Source of the DNA: Okeania sp. SIO2B3
GTDB lineage: Bacteria > Cyanobacteriota > Cyanobacteriia > Cyanobacteriales > Microcoleaceae
Reading direction: 5' to 3'
Assembly: GCF_010672525.1 (NCBI RefSeq)
Contig: NZ_JAAHGH010000001.1
Coordinates: 90,399-134,996, forward strand
DNA: 44,598 nucleotides
Under the pieces are notes generated by a model. It was not told where the DNA came from. It worked only from the letters and a program-made list of their open reading frames with translations, and ran no database searches. Made by a program: the position numbers and the translations under genes. Numbering within the stretch: the first letter of the stretch is position 1; every line of letters starts with the position of its first letter. Of the stretch, positions 6,337 to 20,174 are shown in pieces.

Positions 6337-6448
6337 GGAAATTGCCAATAGCAAATTAAACAGCTATCAATTATAATGAATAATTAACAATTAACAATTA
6401 ACAATTAATAATTATCAGAATTTAATTTAACTAGATAAACATCTAAAT

Positions 6449-6684
6449 AGGGCTTGCTGATTAAATCTAAAAGTATTTACAGATAAAGGTTTTAGCCTTT
6501 TTAGGGTCTTTAAAAAGTGCCTGGTTTTCAGCCTAAAACCTTCAAAAATTTAGTATTTTAGGCGCATAGTTGGGCAGAAAAATCATTCTTATAATTCTTA
6601 CTCCTACCTCCTCTAAGTACCCATTTATCCTGTCTCCTGTCTCCTGTCTGCTACCCTCACGCATAAGACTTTTTCAGCAAACCC
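6449..6684 (+). mobile_element. MITE-like element, best preserved copy (236 bp)
   Basis: The terminal inverted repeats are AGGGCTTGCTGA (6449-6460) and its near complement TCAGCAAACCC(T) (6674-6685). TAAAT flanks both sides (6444-6448 and 6685-6689), a possible target duplication. The element contains a run of TCCTGTC heptamers and has no coding capacity. Related copies lie at 4239-4504 and 15770-16052. Confidence 0.75.
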
Positions 6685-6789
6685 TAAATAATTAACAATT
6701 AATAGTTAATAATCATTATCTTTAATTAATTATTCATTATTTATTGTTCTTATTTCATTATTAATTATTCATTATTAATTATTCATTAT

Positions 6790-10390: not shown

Positions 10391-13300
10391 ATGAGCAATA
10401 TTGACAATTTGAAAAATATCCTGCCTGAGCAGGTTACAGTCACCGCTATCCAAAGAAATATTTCAGAAGGCGGACCGCAAGGTCAAAACTTGGATATTGC
10501 CTTGGGCGATCCCAGCTATTTTGATCTGAAAATCAATGATTCTACTAACCTGCTCGATGGTTCTTTTGATAGTTATTGTCTAGATTTTGACGCAGCATTA
10601 ACATTTGTTGGATATGATTATAATGGTGATGGTGACACTGACGATCAAGATGTTAACCTGCCAACTTTCGGTGTTGATGCAGATGAGGTAGACCCGACAG
10701 ATTTCTCAGCTTCAGTCTACTCCAGCTATGACACAAGTATCTATGATGAATTAACAGCTCGTGGGGTACAAAATCCTGAGAATTTAGGTATGGTCAATTG
10801 GTTAATTAATAACCAGGACACATTTATCAATCAAGGATTTAGTGCAGCTGATATCCAAACAGCAGTTTGGGAATTAGTAGATGGTACTCCCAACCTCAGT
10901 AACGATTTCAGAAATTATTTCACTGATATGTTTGGTGGAATTAGTGATGCCAATGTGGCTGCAATTGTGGCTGAAGCACAGAATAATGCTGATTTTGTCC
11001 CCCAGGAAGGAGAAAAAGTAGCTGTTATCCTCGTACCACCAGATAACAATCAAATCATCATTGCTGGTGTGGAATTATCATCTCAATTTTCGGCTTCTTT
11101 AGGAGACAAAGTATTCTTTGATGATGATGGGGACGGTATCCAAGATGATGGAGAAGATGGAGTACAAGGAGTAACAGTAACCTTAACTGGTGGTGGAGAA
11201 GATGGTATAATTGGCCAAGGGAACGACGACACCACAGTAACTACTACCACTGATGCAGATGGTATGTATAAGTTCGAGGATCTCAACCCTGGTGAAGAGT
11301 ATAAAGTCACATTCTCTGACCTACCGGAAGGATTTGAATTCACAGATCAAGACCAAGGTGGGGATGATGCAGCAGACTCTGATGCTGACCCAAGCAATGG
11401 CATGACAGATGTAGTCATCCTAGCACCTGGTGAAGAAAATCTAGATGTAGATGCAGGAATTGTCGCAACTCCCACAGGCAGCATCGGAGACACTGTCTTC
11501 CTAGATGAAAATGGTAATGGTACACCAGATGCAGGTGAAGGCATAGCAGGAGTAGAAGTCAAACTAGACATTGATAGTGATGGTACATTTGATGCCACCG
11601 AAACCACAGATGCTAATGGTCAATACTTATTCGATGGGTTAAACAGTGGTGACTACACAGTAATGGTAGATACCGATACCTTACCAGATGATGTAGTAAA
11701 TACTGTGGACCCAGATGGTGTTAATGACAGTATGTCTGATGTGACTCTGGGAACAGGGGAAGACAACCTCGACCAAGACTTCGGTTATGAGGAAGAACCT
11801 CAAAATCCTGGTATCGAAATTGAAAAGTCTACCAACACTGTAGATGCTGACACACCAGAAGAAGCACCAGAAATCGCTGCTGGTGAGGAAGTTACTTGGA
11901 CTTATGAAGTAACCAACACTGGTGATGTACCCTTTGATGAAAGTGAAGTTGTAGTCACTGACGACATAGAAGGCATAATTACTAACATCATTAACAAAGG
12001 GGATGGTGATAACATCTTAGCTCCTAATGAAACCTGGATTTATGAGCAGACAGGAATAGCTCAAGATTTATCTACCGTTACTAACAATGTTATTGATTTT
12101 GAAACCGATGGTGAGGGTAATGCTTTAGCTGCTGGCACAATTATTGATGACGAGTACCAGAACCTAGGGGTAACCATTTCCGCTACTGAATTCGGTGCCA
12201 TGATCTTTGACAGTGCTAACCCAACTGGTGGAGACCCAGATTTAGCAACAGACAGTGAAGGCAACATCTTAATCATTTCCGAAGATGGTGACAGTTCCGA
12301 TCCTGATGACAATGCTGGTGGTGGGGTCATTACCTTTGACTTGGATAACCCAATCGAACTCAACTCTATTAACTTTGTAGATATTGAGGAAACGGGTGGT
12401 GAAGTTCGCACTATTGATGTTGATGGAAATATAATAGATACTACCTCAATTCCTGCTCCTGGAAATGGTAGTCTCCAAACTTTAAATATCAATGACAGTG
12501 ATGTTGCCAAGATAGAAGTTGAACTTGCTGGTAGTGGTGCTATTTCAGGCTTAGATTTTGACAGCATAGGTGACGGTATCTATAAAAATATCGGTACAGT
12601 TGTTGCTGATGATGTCACCGACGAAGACCCCAGTCACTATGTTAACGGCGAACCAGATCCTCAAGACCCTGGTATCGACATTGAGAAGTTCACTAATGGA
12701 GTAGATGCTGACACCATAGAGGAAGCAGTAGAAATTGCTGCTGGTGAGACAGTTACTTGGACTTATGAAGTAACCAACACTGGTGATGTACCATTTGATA
12801 TATCTGAGATTGAGGTTACTGACGACCAAGAAGGCACAATTACCAACATCTCTAACCAAGGTGATGGAGATGACACATTAGATCCTAATGAAACCTGGAT
12901 TTATGAACTGACAGGAACTGCTCAAGACTTAAGCACTGCCACCGGTTCCCAAGACATTACCTTCAATCTAACAGGTAGCAGTTCCACAACGGGCAATTAC
13001 GGAAATGTCCGTACCTTTACTCAAGATGGTGTATCAGTAGATGTCAGCGCATTCAGCAGTAACAAGAGCGGTGGAGACTGGAGAACCGCTTACCTTGGAG
13101 CTTATGGTGGTGGTTTAGGTGTTACCAATCGTAATGAAAGTGGTTCCCATCACCGAGTAGATAATGGTGGTAGCAACGATTATATCCTCTTTGAGTTCGA
13201 CCAAAATGTCACCGTAGATCGAGCCTTACTTGATTATATCGTCGATGATAGCGATATCTCAGTTTGGATTGGCGATCGCGATGGAGACATTTCACTTTTG

Positions 13301-14643: not shown

Positions 14644-14863
14644 AGATAAGAGTTTTTGATACCAAATCTACTTTTCATTAATGGATAATGCATAATTGAT
14701 AATTACCTCTGGTTAAAACCGTTACGGAATTGAATATAAGGAATATTGTCTTTGTTTTTCCCTGAAAAGGGGAGGCTTCAAAGCGCGAATTATTTAATTA
14801 TTAATTATTAATTATTAATTTTTCGGTAATACCAATTTGATAAATGTTTGTTACAAATGGTAG

Positions 14864-14893
14864 GGACGTTGCATAAGGGTGTCCGTACAAAAG
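14864..14893 (+). repeat. Small dispersed element, TAGGGACGTTGCATAAGGG type
   Basis: TAGGGACGTTGCATAAGGG + TGTCCGTACAA recurs at 22073-22102 inside the tnpB remnant, with one change. The ends GGGACG and CGTCC(G) are complementary. Confidence 0.7.
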
Positions 14894-15769
14894 AAGGAAG
14901 AGGGAAGAAGGAAGAAGGGGAAAATTTTGAAAAAAAGGGAAAAACGATAGAAATAACTATAGCAATGTGCCCTGGCATATTTACAAATTGCAGGAGGTGT
15001 CCAATAGCTAAAAGTCTTATATGATAAGCTTTTTATTCCCCCTGTTGCCTGTTGCCTGTTGCCTGCGCGCAGCGCTATATCTAAAATTAACTGGAGCAGC
15101 TATTTTTAAGCATATTCGATCAATATCTACCTTTTTGTAGCATTCTTTTTTTTAATTGGTATAAGCGAAAATAAAAAGTTCGTGTTACAAAGCTGCACTT
15201 GGTACAATTTTGTAAACTGGAAAATTTTTTTATTGGGATTGAGATGTAGATATTAATGCTGTATGTACACTAGATAAGTGATAGTCCTGTATATGTAGTG
15301 ATAAGTCAATATAAATGATTAGTTTTTAACATTAATCTTGAAAATATTACGTTTTTAGACAGTGTAAAGTTCTTGGAATAACTATTGCTAGCCAAGGCTT
15401 TCAGAGACTCAAGGTTAAAAACTATCCATTCAGAACAATAGGTGCTGTAAGCCTTTTCCAGTAAAACTTTCAGTCTGGATAGCACACCGTTTTTTAGAAG
15501 AACTTTGTACTCTCCAGTTAAGTTTTCTCCTGCTGAAAAATTTCAAAATTATTGTCTAGGGAATATAGCTGCCTCTAGCCTCTCTCTGCCTTTCATGTCG
15601 CGCAGCAAAACACTTCATATCATCAGCTATAAAATCATCAGGAATTAACCCCAAATATTCTAACCAAAAAGTATTCTATTATCTATTAACAGTAATCAGA
15701 AAAAATCTCTATCTCTATAATAAAATGTCAGATAATCAACTAATCTGCCCTAGTTGTGGTAGTAATTAT

Positions 15770-16052
15770 TGCTCTGCTGATTAATTATAAAAGTATTGAT
15801 ATATAAAGGTTTGAGCATTTTTAGGGTCGAATTGCAGTACACCTGTTTCAGTTGATTTTGCTCAAAAAGCTAGTATTTTGGGCTGACTATGGCAGAACAA
15901 TCTTGGGACAAAACGCCCGCTCCTACCTCCTCGCTCCCGAGCCATTTCTCCCCTCCTGGGAGGGGGAGGGGCGAGGGGTGGGTTGTCTCCTGTCTCCTGT
16001 CTCCTATCTCCTGTCTCCTACCCCAGCAAAAAGACTTTCCATAAGCAAACCC
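15770..16052 (+). mobile_element. MITE-like element inserted in the IS1 remnant
   Basis: The left end is TGCTCTGCTGATTAATTA and the right end TAAGCAAACCC. TAATTAT occurs on both sides (15763-15769 and 16053-16059) as the target duplication. Removing the element plus one TAATTAT joins TGTGGTAG to TAATTATATTGTTAAA, restoring CGSNYIVKNG in frame. The interior carries a G-rich block (15951-15983) and TCCTGTC heptamers. It is related to 4239-4504 and 6449-6684. Confidence 0.85.
15951..15983 (+). repeat. G-rich dispersed element with quadruplex pattern
   Basis: CCCTCCTGGG is followed by G-runs of 5, 4, 4 and 3 separated by 1-3 bases. It lies inside the MITE copy, as does the block in 4239-4504. 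Confidence 0.7.
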
Positions 16053-16403
16053 TAATTATATTGTTAAAAATGGGATGATTCACTTCGGAAAAACAAAAAT
16101 ATCAGTGTCAAAATTATCTGTGACAATTTGTGGAAAATAGTAAATAAATTATATTTAGTAATTAAGCCAAATAATTAATTGATAAGTTAGTTTGGCACTT
16201 TTTAATTCGTGTAACAGGTGTGTCGAAAAAATGGTTCCAGAATTACGTTAATAATAAGTATGCTGAAATTTCTCGGTCTATTAAATATACTAAGAAAAAA
16301 CTGGGTAAACTCACCATCCAATGTTATGAAATGTAGTCATTTTATTGACAATAAAAATCACAAACAATGGCTCTGATTAGCAATTGATATAGAAACTAAA
16401 AGA

Positions 16404-16604
16404 AGCGTTTCGCTGCGCTACATCAGAAGGGGAGACTAGCAGCAGCTATATCACCTGACCACAATTTTATCACTACATATACAGGACGACCGAAATATAT
16501 TAGATACTGTTTGTATTGATTTACCATAATGAATAGAGGAAATAATTACTCTAACATCTTAATTTTTAATTTTTGCTTCAATCGCAAATTAACAATACCT
16601 CGTT
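16404..16604. other. Short gene-free stretch with a small dispersed element
   Basis: GCGTTTCGCTGCGCTACATC (16406-16425) is a copy of the element found at 22354-22373 in the tnpB remnant. Nothing else is recognised. Confidence 0.5.
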
Positions 16605-17045
16605 TTATTGTTCTTGATAAGTAATTTCTTCTCTCTTCACGACCAGACCATTGATTGCTAGACTAAAAGAACCATCATTCACTCTGAAAGTTTTATTACC
16701 ATCAATTGCAGCATATCCTTGATTAAATTCTACAGGTAACTCTAAAACTTGATTCGGATTAGATTTTCTGCCTGCAACTAACATTAATTGACCATTTGGT
16801 TGACGACAAATATTAGCAAAATAGTTCTTGGATTCAAAATAATTTACTTCAGACCAGTTGTCTCCACGTTGAAGACAAATACGTCGGTCATTCCGGGGAA
16901 GTTCAGCTAATAATATAGTCCCTTGCTCTGTTTCTAGATTGTTGTGATATGCTAGAACTTTTGCTGAAAATGTATATAAAAAGAATGTAGTTATTGTCAA
17001 TAGTCCTAACTTTAAGAGCTGTTGATTAGTCTTAACAAAATTCAC
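16605..17045 (-). CDS. Secreted protein of unknown function, paralogue of the next gene
   Basis: This 146-residue protein begins with a hydrophobic signal segment (about 12-32, SAKVLA as possible cleavage site). The mature part carries ILLAELPRNDRRICLQ, YFANICRQPNGQLMLVAGRKSNPNQ and GYAAIDGNKTFRVN, which align with the neighbour at 17193-17678 over its whole length. Two cysteines, in RICLQ and NICRQ, are shared by both proteins and could form a disulfide. The two genes are in tandem on the minus strand, 147 bp apart. I do not recognise the family. Confidence 0.75.
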   Translation of the reverse strand: MNFVKTNQQLLKLGLLTITTFFLYTFSAKVLAYHNNLETEQGTILLAELPRNDRRICLQRGDNWSEVNYFESKNYFANICRQPNGQLMLVAGRKSNPNQVLELPVEFNQGYAAIDGNKTFRVNDGSFSLAINGLVVKREEITYQEQ

Positions 17046-17192
17046 AGTTTAGTCCTCTGATAAATGAATTAATGGGTTCCATGATACAACATAGAAGTAA
17101 AATTTAATAATTAAATTTCTATGATTTAATCAAAAGCATATCTGGCAAGGGAGGCAAATTAAATTTTCTTCAAATAAAAATTAATAGATATA

Positions 17193-17678
17193 CTATCTCT
17201 CTTGACATACTTTTTCAGAAAATTGACTACACATATAGGTTACTTGTTCTTCACTGATAGTCTTACCATTTTCTACAATACTTAAAGTAGCACCTGTTAC
17301 AATATAGGTAGTATTTCCGTCTTCAGCAACATATCCAGTTCCCTCTTCAGCTATTGCAGCTATCTTAATATAATTTTCAGGATTAGCTTTTTGACCACCA
17401 ATATAAATTAATTGACCATTTGGCTTTCGACAGATATTGGCAAAAAAATTAGCTGTTTCTACATAAAAAGATGTAACTAAAGGCAGATTTTGCTGAGAGC
17501 ATATCTGCAAATTATCTCGTGATGACTCAGTTAATAGTATAGAATTCTCATTTATTTCTCCAGGTTTAATTAAGGCTAAAACTTGAATTGAAGGGGTGAA
17601 AGTGAATAAGAAAAAAGCATTCACTACCAACAATATAAAAAATATAAAATTACTATAATCTAGATTAACTTTCATCAA
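17193..17678 (-). CDS. Secreted protein of unknown function, paralogue of the previous gene
   Basis: This 161-residue protein has an N-terminal hydrophobic segment (about 11-35) followed by LLTESSRDNLQICSQQ, FFANICRKPNGQLIYIGGQKANPEN, GYVAEDGNTTYIV and LSIVENGK. The order matches 16605-17045. It has an extra C-terminal tail with two more cysteines (YMCSQFSEKVCQER). It lies upstream of its paralogue on the same strand, which suggests a tandem duplication followed by divergence. The upstream AT-rich region has no recognised operator. Confidence 0.75.
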   Translation of the reverse strand: MMKVNLDYSNFIFFILLVVNAFFLFTFTPSIQVLALIKPGEINENSILLTESSRDNLQICSQQNLPLVTSFYVETANFFANICRKPNGQLIYIGGQKANPENYIKIAAIAEEGTGYVAEDGNTTYIVTGATLSIVENGKTISEEQVTYMCSQFSEKVCQER

Positions 17679-18025
17679 ATTTATAGTTGCTTATATAGAA
17701 TTGTAGATGTTTTTTTTCAAATATTCTGCCTTCTAGTTGTCCCTTGTGATTAAATATACTAGCGATCGCCATGAATTTAGACACTTATATCATGTATCTT
17801 TGAATACCTACAATCAAAATTTTAGGCAACAGGAAACAGGGATAAATTTATCAGATAAAACATTTTTATTATAGCTAATTAATAAGACTTGATATTACCA
17901 TTTGGAACAATAATTAAGTAGGTAAAATTATTCGTAATTTATACTTAGGTATATTTTCGGTTATCCTGCTCGCGTAATGCTTAAAGATCTATATTTTTTA
18001 ATTTATGCCCAAACTTCCCACATTC

Positions 18026-18060
18026 CTCTCCTGGGAGGGGGAGGGGCTAGGGGTGGGTTC
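18026..18060 (+). repeat. G-rich dispersed element with quadruplex pattern
   Basis: CTCTCCTGGGAGGG is followed by GGAGGGGCTAGGGGTGGG, on the same strand orientation as the other five copies. The short phrase CCCAAACTTCCCACA flanks it on both sides. Confidence 0.7.
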
Positions 18061-18440
18061 CCAAACTTCCCACACTATCTCTAGCATTACTATGCACCAC
18101 CGCCTATTCTCTTTATCTCTCCTCCTTCCTTCTATTCCCTCCTAACTATATGTCGCCATACCGACAGCAATTTTACAGGAGGACTCCCTAGTTATCTAGG
18201 AGAGAAGAAAGAAGGAAAAATCTAGCGTTGTCTGAGTTTTAAGCTTTTGATATGTCTTAACCTTTTCTTCGACTGCTATATAATATGAAGACCTATATTC
18301 CTAACTACTAACTACTAGGGGTCTGTCAAATTTGAAAATTTTTGTAACTGTGATTTTTGGGTAATGTTTTTTGGGTAATGCAACCCCTCAAAATTATCTT
18401 AACAGAGGACTATAAACACCCTAAGTACTTTTAAAAAAAA

Positions 18441-18559
18441 TTGATCAAAATAATATGGGTCGCGCAACCACGCCTTTTAAGGCGATCAGGTTTTTGGAGA
18501 GTTGCTCAAATCCCCGTTACAAAAATAACTTCTGACTTCTGACTTCTGACTTCTGACTT
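18441..18559 (+). repeat. Dispersed repeat ending in (ACTTCTG)n heptamers
   Basis: The order is TTGATCAAAATAA, GGGTCGCGCAACC, CGCCTTTTAAGGCG (6 bp stem), TTTTTGGAGAGTTGCTCAAA, then CTTCTGA heptamers. The same order recurs at 33140-33285, and in reverse orientation at 44114-44233. Confidence 0.75.
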
Positions 18560-18680
18560 CCTTAACACATCTGATATAAGCTGTTGAACATTTAAACTAT
18601 AGAACTTCTCAATCAAAGGAAACCCTTAAGCCTTAACAAAGAACATAAAACCTAAATGCATCCTAGCTTATATCAGCAAG

Positions 18681-19817
18681 CTAACCAAAAATAACTTTTA
18701 GTAAAGAAAAATCATCACTAAAAGCATTACCACAATTCAAATCTTGCACATAGTTTAATATCTTATCTAGATGAAAATAACCGTATTTATGGTACTCTAA
18801 AATTAGATTGATAAAGTTATCTATACCCCAGATTTTTCCTCCAGGTTGAGGAATTTCATAAACACCATCACTAAAGATATACAGAGAACTCAACTTCTCA
18901 ACTACACAAGAATTATCAACATAAGTCACATCTGGAAACATACCAATAGGCATTCCTGGAGTTTTCAACTTATTCACCTGACTAGGCTGACCATTACCTA
19001 AGATTAACACAGCCGGAGGATGACCTGCACTTGCATATACCAGTTGATTCTCAGAGCGATTATATACCCCATACCAAATTGTAAAGTATTTATCATTTTG
19101 ATATGTCATCTGGTAAGTATTATTTAAAGCCCTAAGTACATCACTAGGTTGATGGTAATCTATATTCGGTATTGCCTTCGATCTTAATAAATTCAAAACT
19201 GAAACAGAAGGAAGTGCCGCCCGTAAACCATGGCCAGCTACATCCAGTAAATACACAGCCAAGTAATTGTCGTCTAGCCAATAATAATCAAAGCAGTCTC
19301 CTCCTAACTGGTGAGAAGGAATGAACTGTGATTCAACTTTGACCGGTTCTATTAAGGGTTCTGGCAGAAGAGAGCGGACATAATCAGCAGCTTCAGCTAA
19401 TTCTGCTTCTAGTAGTCGCTTTTGGGTTTGTAAGTCTTGAGATAGCTGATGTAATCGCAATCCTGCTCTGACCCTGGCGATCAATTCACTCATTTCTATT
19501 GGTTTAGAAATAAAGTCATCAGCTCCTGCATCCAGACCTTTAACTCGATCTGGAACCGCTGCTAAAGAAGTTAATAAAATGAAGAAAGTAGTAGATAGCT
19601 CAGAACTTGATTTAACTCGGCGGCATACTTCTATTCCTGTGAGTCTTGGCATGATCCAGTCACAGATAATCAAAGCAGGTTGTAAATTTTGTGCCTGTTG
19701 AAAACCATCTTCACCATTACTTGCTACTGTCACTTCATAACCCTGTTTCTGGAGAGCCCTTTTGAGCAATTCCTGAATGGCAATATCATCATCAATAACC
19801 AAAATTTTATACATCAT
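18681..19817 (-). CDS. Response regulator with C-terminal SpoIIE/PP2C-type phosphatase domain
   Basis: Numbered from the MMYKILVIDDD start (19817) the protein has 378 residues. The receiver domain covers 1-125 with acidic pocket D9-D11, phospho-acceptor Asp53 (ICDWIMP) and Lys105 (SKP). A coiled linker covers about 125-150. The PP2C-like domain covers about 160-378 with GGD at 172-174, DVAGHG at 192-197 and SDDFSLL near the end. The frame is open 24 codons further upstream, but that part resembles no REC domain, so the inner start is preferred. It probably dephosphorylates an anti-anti-sigma type protein when its receiver is phosphorylated. The divergent RsbW-like gene at 20175 is the likely partner-switch kinase. 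Confidence 0.92.
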   Translation of the reverse strand: MMYKILVIDDDIAIQELLKRALQKQGYEVTVASNGEDGFQQAQNLQPALIICDWIMPRLTGIEVCRRVKSSSELSTTFFILLTSLAAVPDRVKGLDAGADDFISKPIEMSELIARVRAGLRLHQLSQDLQTQKRLLEAELAEAADYVRSLLPEPLIEPVKVESQFIPSHQLGGDCFDYYWLDDNYLAVYLLDVAGHGLRAALPSVSVLNLLRSKAIPNIDYHQPSDVLRALNNTYQMTYQNDKYFTIWYGVYNRSENQLVYASAGHPPAVLILGNGQPSQVNKLKTPGMPIGMFPDVTYVDNSCVVEKLSSLYIFSDGVYEIPQPGGKIWGIDNFINLILEYHKYGYFHLDKILNYVQDLNCGNAFSDDFSLLKVIFG

Positions 19818-20174
19818 GCACTCAGTTAAACAATTCACTATTTCGGCTAAAGCCAACATAAAAGTGAGTAGACCAACAGGGGTTTTCATTTCAACTCGCT
19901 TCGTTCAAAAGCAGCAGGAGGAAGGATAGAAGGATATAAGTAAAGTACTAATATTTTTTTCTTTTCTTACTTCCTTCATTTTGCAGATATAGAGTTTAAT
20001 TCTCCCACGCCTTTTAAAAATTGTTGGTCTTCAATCTTACATTGGGATAGAATCCCTTTTTTTATCAACTCTCTTCCTTATTTTTAAATTATTTACATAA
20101 ATTTTATACACATACTTTACAATATAGCTTAGGATATACCTAAAATTATTATGTAATAAATTAAGAAAGTAAGT
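19818..20174. other. Divergent intergenic region, phosphatase and RsbW-like gene
   Basis: This AT-rich region should hold promoters for both genes. TATAGCTTAGGATATACC-type sequence lies near 20124. No inverted repeat that stands out as an operator was found. Confidence 0.35.

Follow-up and report, generated by a model that had tools for sequence, protein, structure and literature searches.

The window analysed here is the whole stretch of 44,598 nt from Okeania sp. SIO2B3 (assembly GCF_010672525.1, contig NZ_JAAHGH010000001.1, positions 90,399-134,996). We call this genome G000, four congeners G001 to G004, and a further relative G016. The window contains a remnant of an IS1-family element that is split by a short MITE, and a second copy of the same MITE family. 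Their features, all on the forward strand, are as follows:

15284-16487, + strand: IS1-family remnant, with inverted repeats GTCCTGTATATGTAGTGAT at 15284-15302 and 16469-16487 and with NCBIfam IS1 matches
15725-15768, + strand: start of the broken IS1 transposase gene, through the left TAATTA inclusive; continuous in G004
15763-15768, + strand: left target duplication TAATTA; single copy in G004 and G002
15769-16052, + strand: MITE, 284 bp, with the variant left end TTGCTCTGCTGA and the right end GCAAACCC
15984-16019, + strand: heptamer array within the MITE, TGTCTCC, 5.1 copies
16053-16058, + strand: right target duplication TAATTA; single copy in G004 and G002
16059-16397, + strand: remainder of the broken IS1 transposase gene (16053-16397 matches locus L065; the G016 homologue is similar up to about 16397)
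6450-6684, + strand: second family copy, 235 bp, with the canonical left end GGGCTTGCTGAT and TAAATA at 6444-6449 and 6685-6690

Insertion of the element

The sequence TAATTAT is present at 15763-15769 and 16053-16059, on either side of the inserted element, as a first-pass annotation of this DNA had stated. This heptamer is so frequent in the window (52 sites, against a shuffle mean of 21.7) that its presence at both flanks is, taken alone, weak evidence. What proves the insertion is the empty site at the orthologous position. A translated piece of the IS1 remnant matched 31 of 59 genomes (our own and relatives). In G002, G003 and G004, the remnant pieces are 90-91% identical in the translated search and broken to the same degree, and the sequence around them agrees with the window, which shows that the locus is the same; G001 gave only a weak match to the piece. 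Both G004 and G002 carry the exact empty site, GGTAG-TAATTA-TATTG, with a single TAATTA at the corresponding point of this IS1 remnant, and G004 reads MSDNQLICPSCGSNYIVKNG straight through, without a break. In G003, the same site is occupied by the element. The homologue in G016, which lies at a different locus, is uninterrupted and has TAATCA at the corresponding place.

Positions 15769-16052 are thus a transposition insertion into a TAATTA site, of which 6 bp were duplicated. Since the element is absent from G004, G002 and G016, it is not part of the IS1 gene. The first-pass annotation had proposed that the MITE jumped after IS1 arrived, and had pointed to related genomes as the place to look for an empty site; the exact empty sites in the same IS1 remnant of two congeners, together with the dispersed nature of the family, bear this order of events out. 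That the TAATTAT flanks and the IS1-like join resemble a real insertion by chance, as the abundance of the heptamer and the sub-cut-off IS1 scores of the short remnant pieces might suggest, is refuted by the exact empty site in two congeners and by an IS1 homologue above its cut-off, and deserves practically no credence.

The interrupted gene

When the flanks are joined after removal of the insert and one repeat, they read MSDNQLICPSCGSNYIVKNGMIHFGKTK, and then the frame is lost. The earlier proposal that this join restores the frame holds only for the first N-terminal stretch, and later lesions break the frame again. The remnant pieces are collinear, with a match to an IS1/IS1595 zinc domain (4.4e-5) followed by two matches to NF033558 (0.0021 and 0.0088), all below the curated cut-offs. 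Pfam gave weak, mixed zinc-ribbon matches for the first piece and no match for the two later ones. The first half of the G016 homologue reaches 124.2 bits against an NCBIfam IS1 cut-off of 100, and its second half, in a different frame, scores 58.3 bits to the IS1 model. The inverted repeats of the remnant are identical, and in the same places, in G002, G003 and G004 and around the G016 homologue.

By these similarities, the interrupted flanks probably belong to the IS1 family, and the 'IS1-type fossil' of the first-pass annotation is supported. The remnant resembles the family in its N-terminal zinc-ribbon motif, its collinear NF033558 matches and its inverted repeats, but differs from it in being broken and in having lost its 3′ part. 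None of the 11 IS1 loci in the own genome resembles the joined flanks at the DNA level. Target duplications of the IS1 family measure 8-9 bp; AACAATTA flanks the G016 homologue on both sides, and no such duplication was recognised around the remnant in the window. Positions 15361-15612, in the 5′ part of the remnant, include approximately 200 bp without a counterpart in the G016 homologue, and no duplication was seen there.

The genomes G000, G002, G003 and G004 share four departures from the G016 homologue: the reading frame shifts, a gap of 15 bp opens, a stop codon comes too early and the 3′ part is gone. Because all four congeners compared share these lesions, the IS1 gene was dead before the element landed; as the gene was already broken, the element did not kill it.

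Occupancy and the relationships of the flanks

The element is common to G000 and G003 and absent from G004 and G002, and in the region 15190-20000 this occupancy disagrees with the tree of the flanks. The right flank at 16500-17515 groups G000 with G004 and G003 with G002 (21 versus 2 sites), and at 18562-20000 it again pairs G000 with G004 (23 versus 4 and 3 sites). To the left, near the element, two of the three informative sites group G000 with G003, and all four sites further left (12515-12841) pair these same two genomes. The closest congener alternates along the window, which suggests that exchange between lineages is the simplest account of the conflict.

In another reading, the common ancestor of the four congeners already carried the element, and G004 and G002 lost it precisely, which would make the empty site secondary. 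We consider this very unlikely: the right flank does pair G000 with G004 while the element pairs G000 with G003, but the left-side sites group G000 with G003, and the G016 homologue, which lies elsewhere, is uninterrupted as well. Since the left-side sites pair G000 with G003 and the closer relative alternates, exchange would explain the pattern without any precise loss. The occupancy of many such sites could mark relationship and exchange among these strains.

Two further segments differ among the congeners. Positions 14674-15161 are absent from G004, between two matching segments, and contain repeats such as TAATTAT and TTGCCTG. G004 has positions 17516-18561, most of which are absent from or altered in G003 and G002.

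The element and its family

The window copy contains no open reading frame of at least 80 amino acids. The family ends GGGYTTGC and GCAAACCC form 8-bp inverted repeats, from which the left end of the window copy, TTGCTCTGC, departs. Among 30 aligned loci, the left end is GGGCTTGCTGATTAA, or the variant TTGCYCTGCTGAT in four of them, and the right end is GCAAACCC. As its left end is this minority variant, the window copy alone cannot give the consensus end of the family. The first-pass annotation had held that this copy fixes the ends and the target duplication of a non-autonomous family. The dispersed, non-autonomous family is confirmed and the ends have to be taken from other copies. Its placement of the MITE at 15770-16052 had the right end correct and the left end one base off, and its 7-bp duplication TAATTAT is replaced by the 6-bp TAATTA. 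The length of 6 bp follows from two loci with the same left end as the window copy (L020 and L028), which have TAATTA on both sides and no shared seventh base, and from an insertion sequence with the same ends that makes 6-bp duplications (see below). In a third locus with this left end (L026), the seventh base is shared too.

The heptamer run varies across 30 copies of the family, the longest run comprising 1 to 10 units. The G003 copy at the same site measures 244 bp, compared with 284 bp in the window, and differs around the heptamer array. Strong secondary structure is often named as typical of MITEs, and is not a defining requirement; the predicted RNA fold of this element is no better than that of many shuffles (z -1.07 and -0.62). 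Searches of Rfam, of tRNAs, of solved structures and of plasmid records gave no result.

The family is large. From 40 scored of 1177 first-look candidates, at least 52 pieces in the own genome were matched. Counting ends, which are not to be equated with copies, TAGGGYTTGCTGAWWAAW occurs 731 times in the own genome with one mismatch allowed (reversed control: 1), and exact matches number 386 there, 957 in G001, 203 in G002, 309 in G003 and 346 in G004. At least one exact canonical end is present in 58 of 98 genomes, with a reversed control of 0 throughout. In contig C1 (327.6 kb), a profile of the 30 aligned copies gave 34 hits, among them 16 with a span of 200 or more of its 271 positions; together they cover 5,343 bases, or 1.6% of the contig. 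Scaled to 10 Mb, an extrapolation from this one contig, this would correspond to about 490 long copies. The highest prokaryotic count given in the excerpted text of one review is 711 ERIC copies in Photorhabdus (PMC10969869). A strict search for ends found no copy in contig C179.

Identical 6-mers flank 10 of 12 end pairs in contig C1, where the search pattern required TA at each end, so that this agreement tests only the other four bases. The consensus end of the MITE family is GGGYTTGC and its duplications are of 6 bp, mostly TANNTA. One stretch of the same contig (C1:149166-149700; L194:9166-9700) has two family copies head to tail that share a single TACTTA, which looks as though a later copy had taken an earlier copy's duplication for its target. 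Another (C1:68343-70262), considered as one long element with a matching duplication, was rejected; it consists of two short copies flanking a regulator-like gene.

The second copy in the window indicates recent movement of the family, because the element at 6450-6684 is absent from G003 and G004. The site in both genomes falls one base short of expectation, and the local length differs further in G004. For the copy at C1:172971, G004 is empty at the exact offset, though the flanks are short and match poorly. Of 14 C1 copies compared with G004 or G003, only 3 gave a verdict, and of 17 copies in contig C33 compared with C1, none did; flanks of the others failed to align.

A candidate partner insertion sequence

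An insertion sequence with the same ends encodes a predicted IS5-family transposase: all three proteins examined score 460-482 bits with NF033578, for which the cut-off is 275, and the second match, to an ISNCY model, is below its cut-off. The domains found, in two pieces, are DUF772 and DDE_Tnp_1_2. At least 79 loci of this insertion sequence were found, all with cyanobacterial titles, including Kamptonema sp. UHCC 0994, Microcoleus vaginatus HSN003, Tolypothrix campylonemoides VB511288 and Calothrix parasitica NIES-267. Among the matches listed, both ends were found in 54 of the 79 loci; the flanks of these 54, compared with no flank motif demanded, comprise 32 with identical 6-mers, 2 with 7-bp repeats, 13 sharing 2 bp and 7 sharing none. 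As no flank was demanded, these loci settle the duplication length at 6 bp. Two of the 32 identical 6-mers fall outside TANNTA (TATTTG and GACATA), and their occurrence implies that the outer TA belongs to the duplicated target and not to the element. Also among the matches listed, 31 of the 34 loci with a 6- or 7-bp repeat measure 1.65-1.75 kb.

The MITE family shares its ends, GGGYTTGC(TGA) in the insertion sequences, and its 6-bp, mostly TANNTA duplications with these IS5-family elements, a feature of type I MITEs. The two differ in that the insertion sequences encode a transposase and are mostly 1.65-1.75 kb long, whereas the window MITE encodes none and has 284 bp. One canonical MITE copy (L010) aligns over its first 81 bases, at 69% across 84 columns, with an end of the decayed partner in G004 (E 1.7e-4). 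The window copy showed no convincing similarity to the partner beyond the family ends (best E 0.025).

In the own genome, only short pieces of the partner were found (three, plus one in a separate search), and none of the five genomes G000 to G004 has an IS5-type gene above the NF033578 cut-off. A decayed copy in G003 (L141) retains both ends and has TAATTA on either side. As the own assembly is a draft of 249 contigs, an intact IS5-type copy may have been lost from it. With the partner found only as decayed pieces in the five genomes, the family seems to have burst in the genus and then been left largely stranded.

Several other candidate partners were rejected. Transposases of the IS4/IS1634 type or with another DDE_Tnp_1 domain gave 12 matches in the genome, and only two loci have both kinds of ends. 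In one of these (L074, contig C210), the ends enclose 889 bp, and the 6-mer TATTTA stands on both sides. Each half of this locus (L074:1187-2075) matches the MITE profile, however, and an IS4/IS701-like transposase remnant lies in the middle, so that it is a MITE copy with a nested insertion and not a partner. In the other (L073), the flanking 6-mers of the two ends differ. In G003, an open frame of 555 aa matches NF033578 weakly; no such ends occur in the 3.5 kb of sequence covered there.

As the most likely mechanism, an IS5-family DDE transposase of the NF033578 type would mobilise the MITE in trans, encoded by a partner that measures about 1.65-1.75 kb and agrees with the MITE family in its ends and in its 6-bp, mostly TANNTA duplications. 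In the window, the MITE would have inserted in this way into TAATTA within an already broken IS1-family element, duplicating the 6-bp site. We consider it highly likely that the element is a MITE inserted in a dead IS1 element, belonging to a large GGGYTTGC family that is probably mobilised in trans by an IS5-family transposase. Because the family is tied to a named transposase type, a direct test of mobilisation is possible.

The variant left end

The variant left end TTGCTCTGC, which lacks the terminal GGG, occurs 48 times in this genome with one mismatch allowed. It is found at 15769-15784 and at loci L317-L346, mostly preceded by TAATTA. Variant ends have TAATTA at 26 of 30 loci (23 of 25 when apparent orthologues are merged by eye), compared with 15 of 30 canonical ends (p 0.001). 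In a second sample, taken from contigs C1 and C33, 24 of 40 canonical ends are also in TAATTA, which makes the preference of the variant for this site less marked than it seemed from the first sample. Among 29 variant-end loci, the flanking 6-mers match in 17 of the 21 with a right end, and shuffled pairs match in 16.3 on average; this 6-bp match is uninformative because nearly all of the sites are TAATTA. If the ends were strictly recognised, the spread of a variant that lacks the terminal GGG would be difficult to understand.

An unlikely extension of this point is an orphan burst, in which several hundred copies, some younger than the split of close congeners, were kept moving by a non-cognate enzyme in a genus that yielded no intact cognate transposase gene, with the variant end as a lineage adapted to that enzyme. 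The broader alternative, namely that the MITE is real and was mobilised by a transposase not of the IS5 type, such as a non-cognate enzyme still working in the genome, we regard as improbable. The 48 variant ends, mostly at TAATTA, would fit it, as would the lack of an IS5-type gene above cut-off in G000 to G004, combined with the absence of the 6450-6684 copy from G003 and G004. However, the ends, the 6-bp duplication and the target motif all agree with the IS5-type insertion sequence, decayed copies of which, with the same ends, are present in the genus. Furthermore, both two-ended loci among the 12 DDE_Tnp_1 matches fail as partners, one being a nested remnant and the other having unlike flanks, and the TAATTA bias is less sharp in the second sample of canonical ends. 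Mobilisation in trans by the IS5-family transposase is thus preferred. If recent copies arose without the cognate enzyme, the family would be a test case for cross-mobilisation.

Comparison with known elements

The MITE belongs to an unusually large family of an otherwise known type of element, and its clean natural insertion, with an empty site, establishes the ends, the target motif and the duplication for a MITE family that is very abundant in cyanobacteria. In one open-access library, none of the papers listed describes this element in its title or in the opening of its abstract, and none of those listed for the end sequences has a cyanobacterial title; we do not claim the family to be unpublished.

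Compared by description only, Nezha (Zhou et al. 2008, cited in PMC10969869) is likewise a cyanobacterial MITE, and according to another paper (PMC3049150), it is proposed to be mobilised by a resident ISNpu3-like insertion sequence. The MITEs of Anabaena sp. 90, of which 147 complete or partial copies of 77-541 bp are reported (PMC3542288), are also cyanobacterial and also lie inside pseudogenes. The authors of that paper saw no similarity with the ends of insertion sequences of that genome (type II), whereas the ends here match a type of insertion sequence. BrickBuilt of Porphyromonas gingivalis is reported (PMC4596501) to be a MITE with an internal tandem-repeat array, as is the element described here; its unit is 23 bp in 19 copies, while the present element has a 7-bp unit and belongs to a far larger family.
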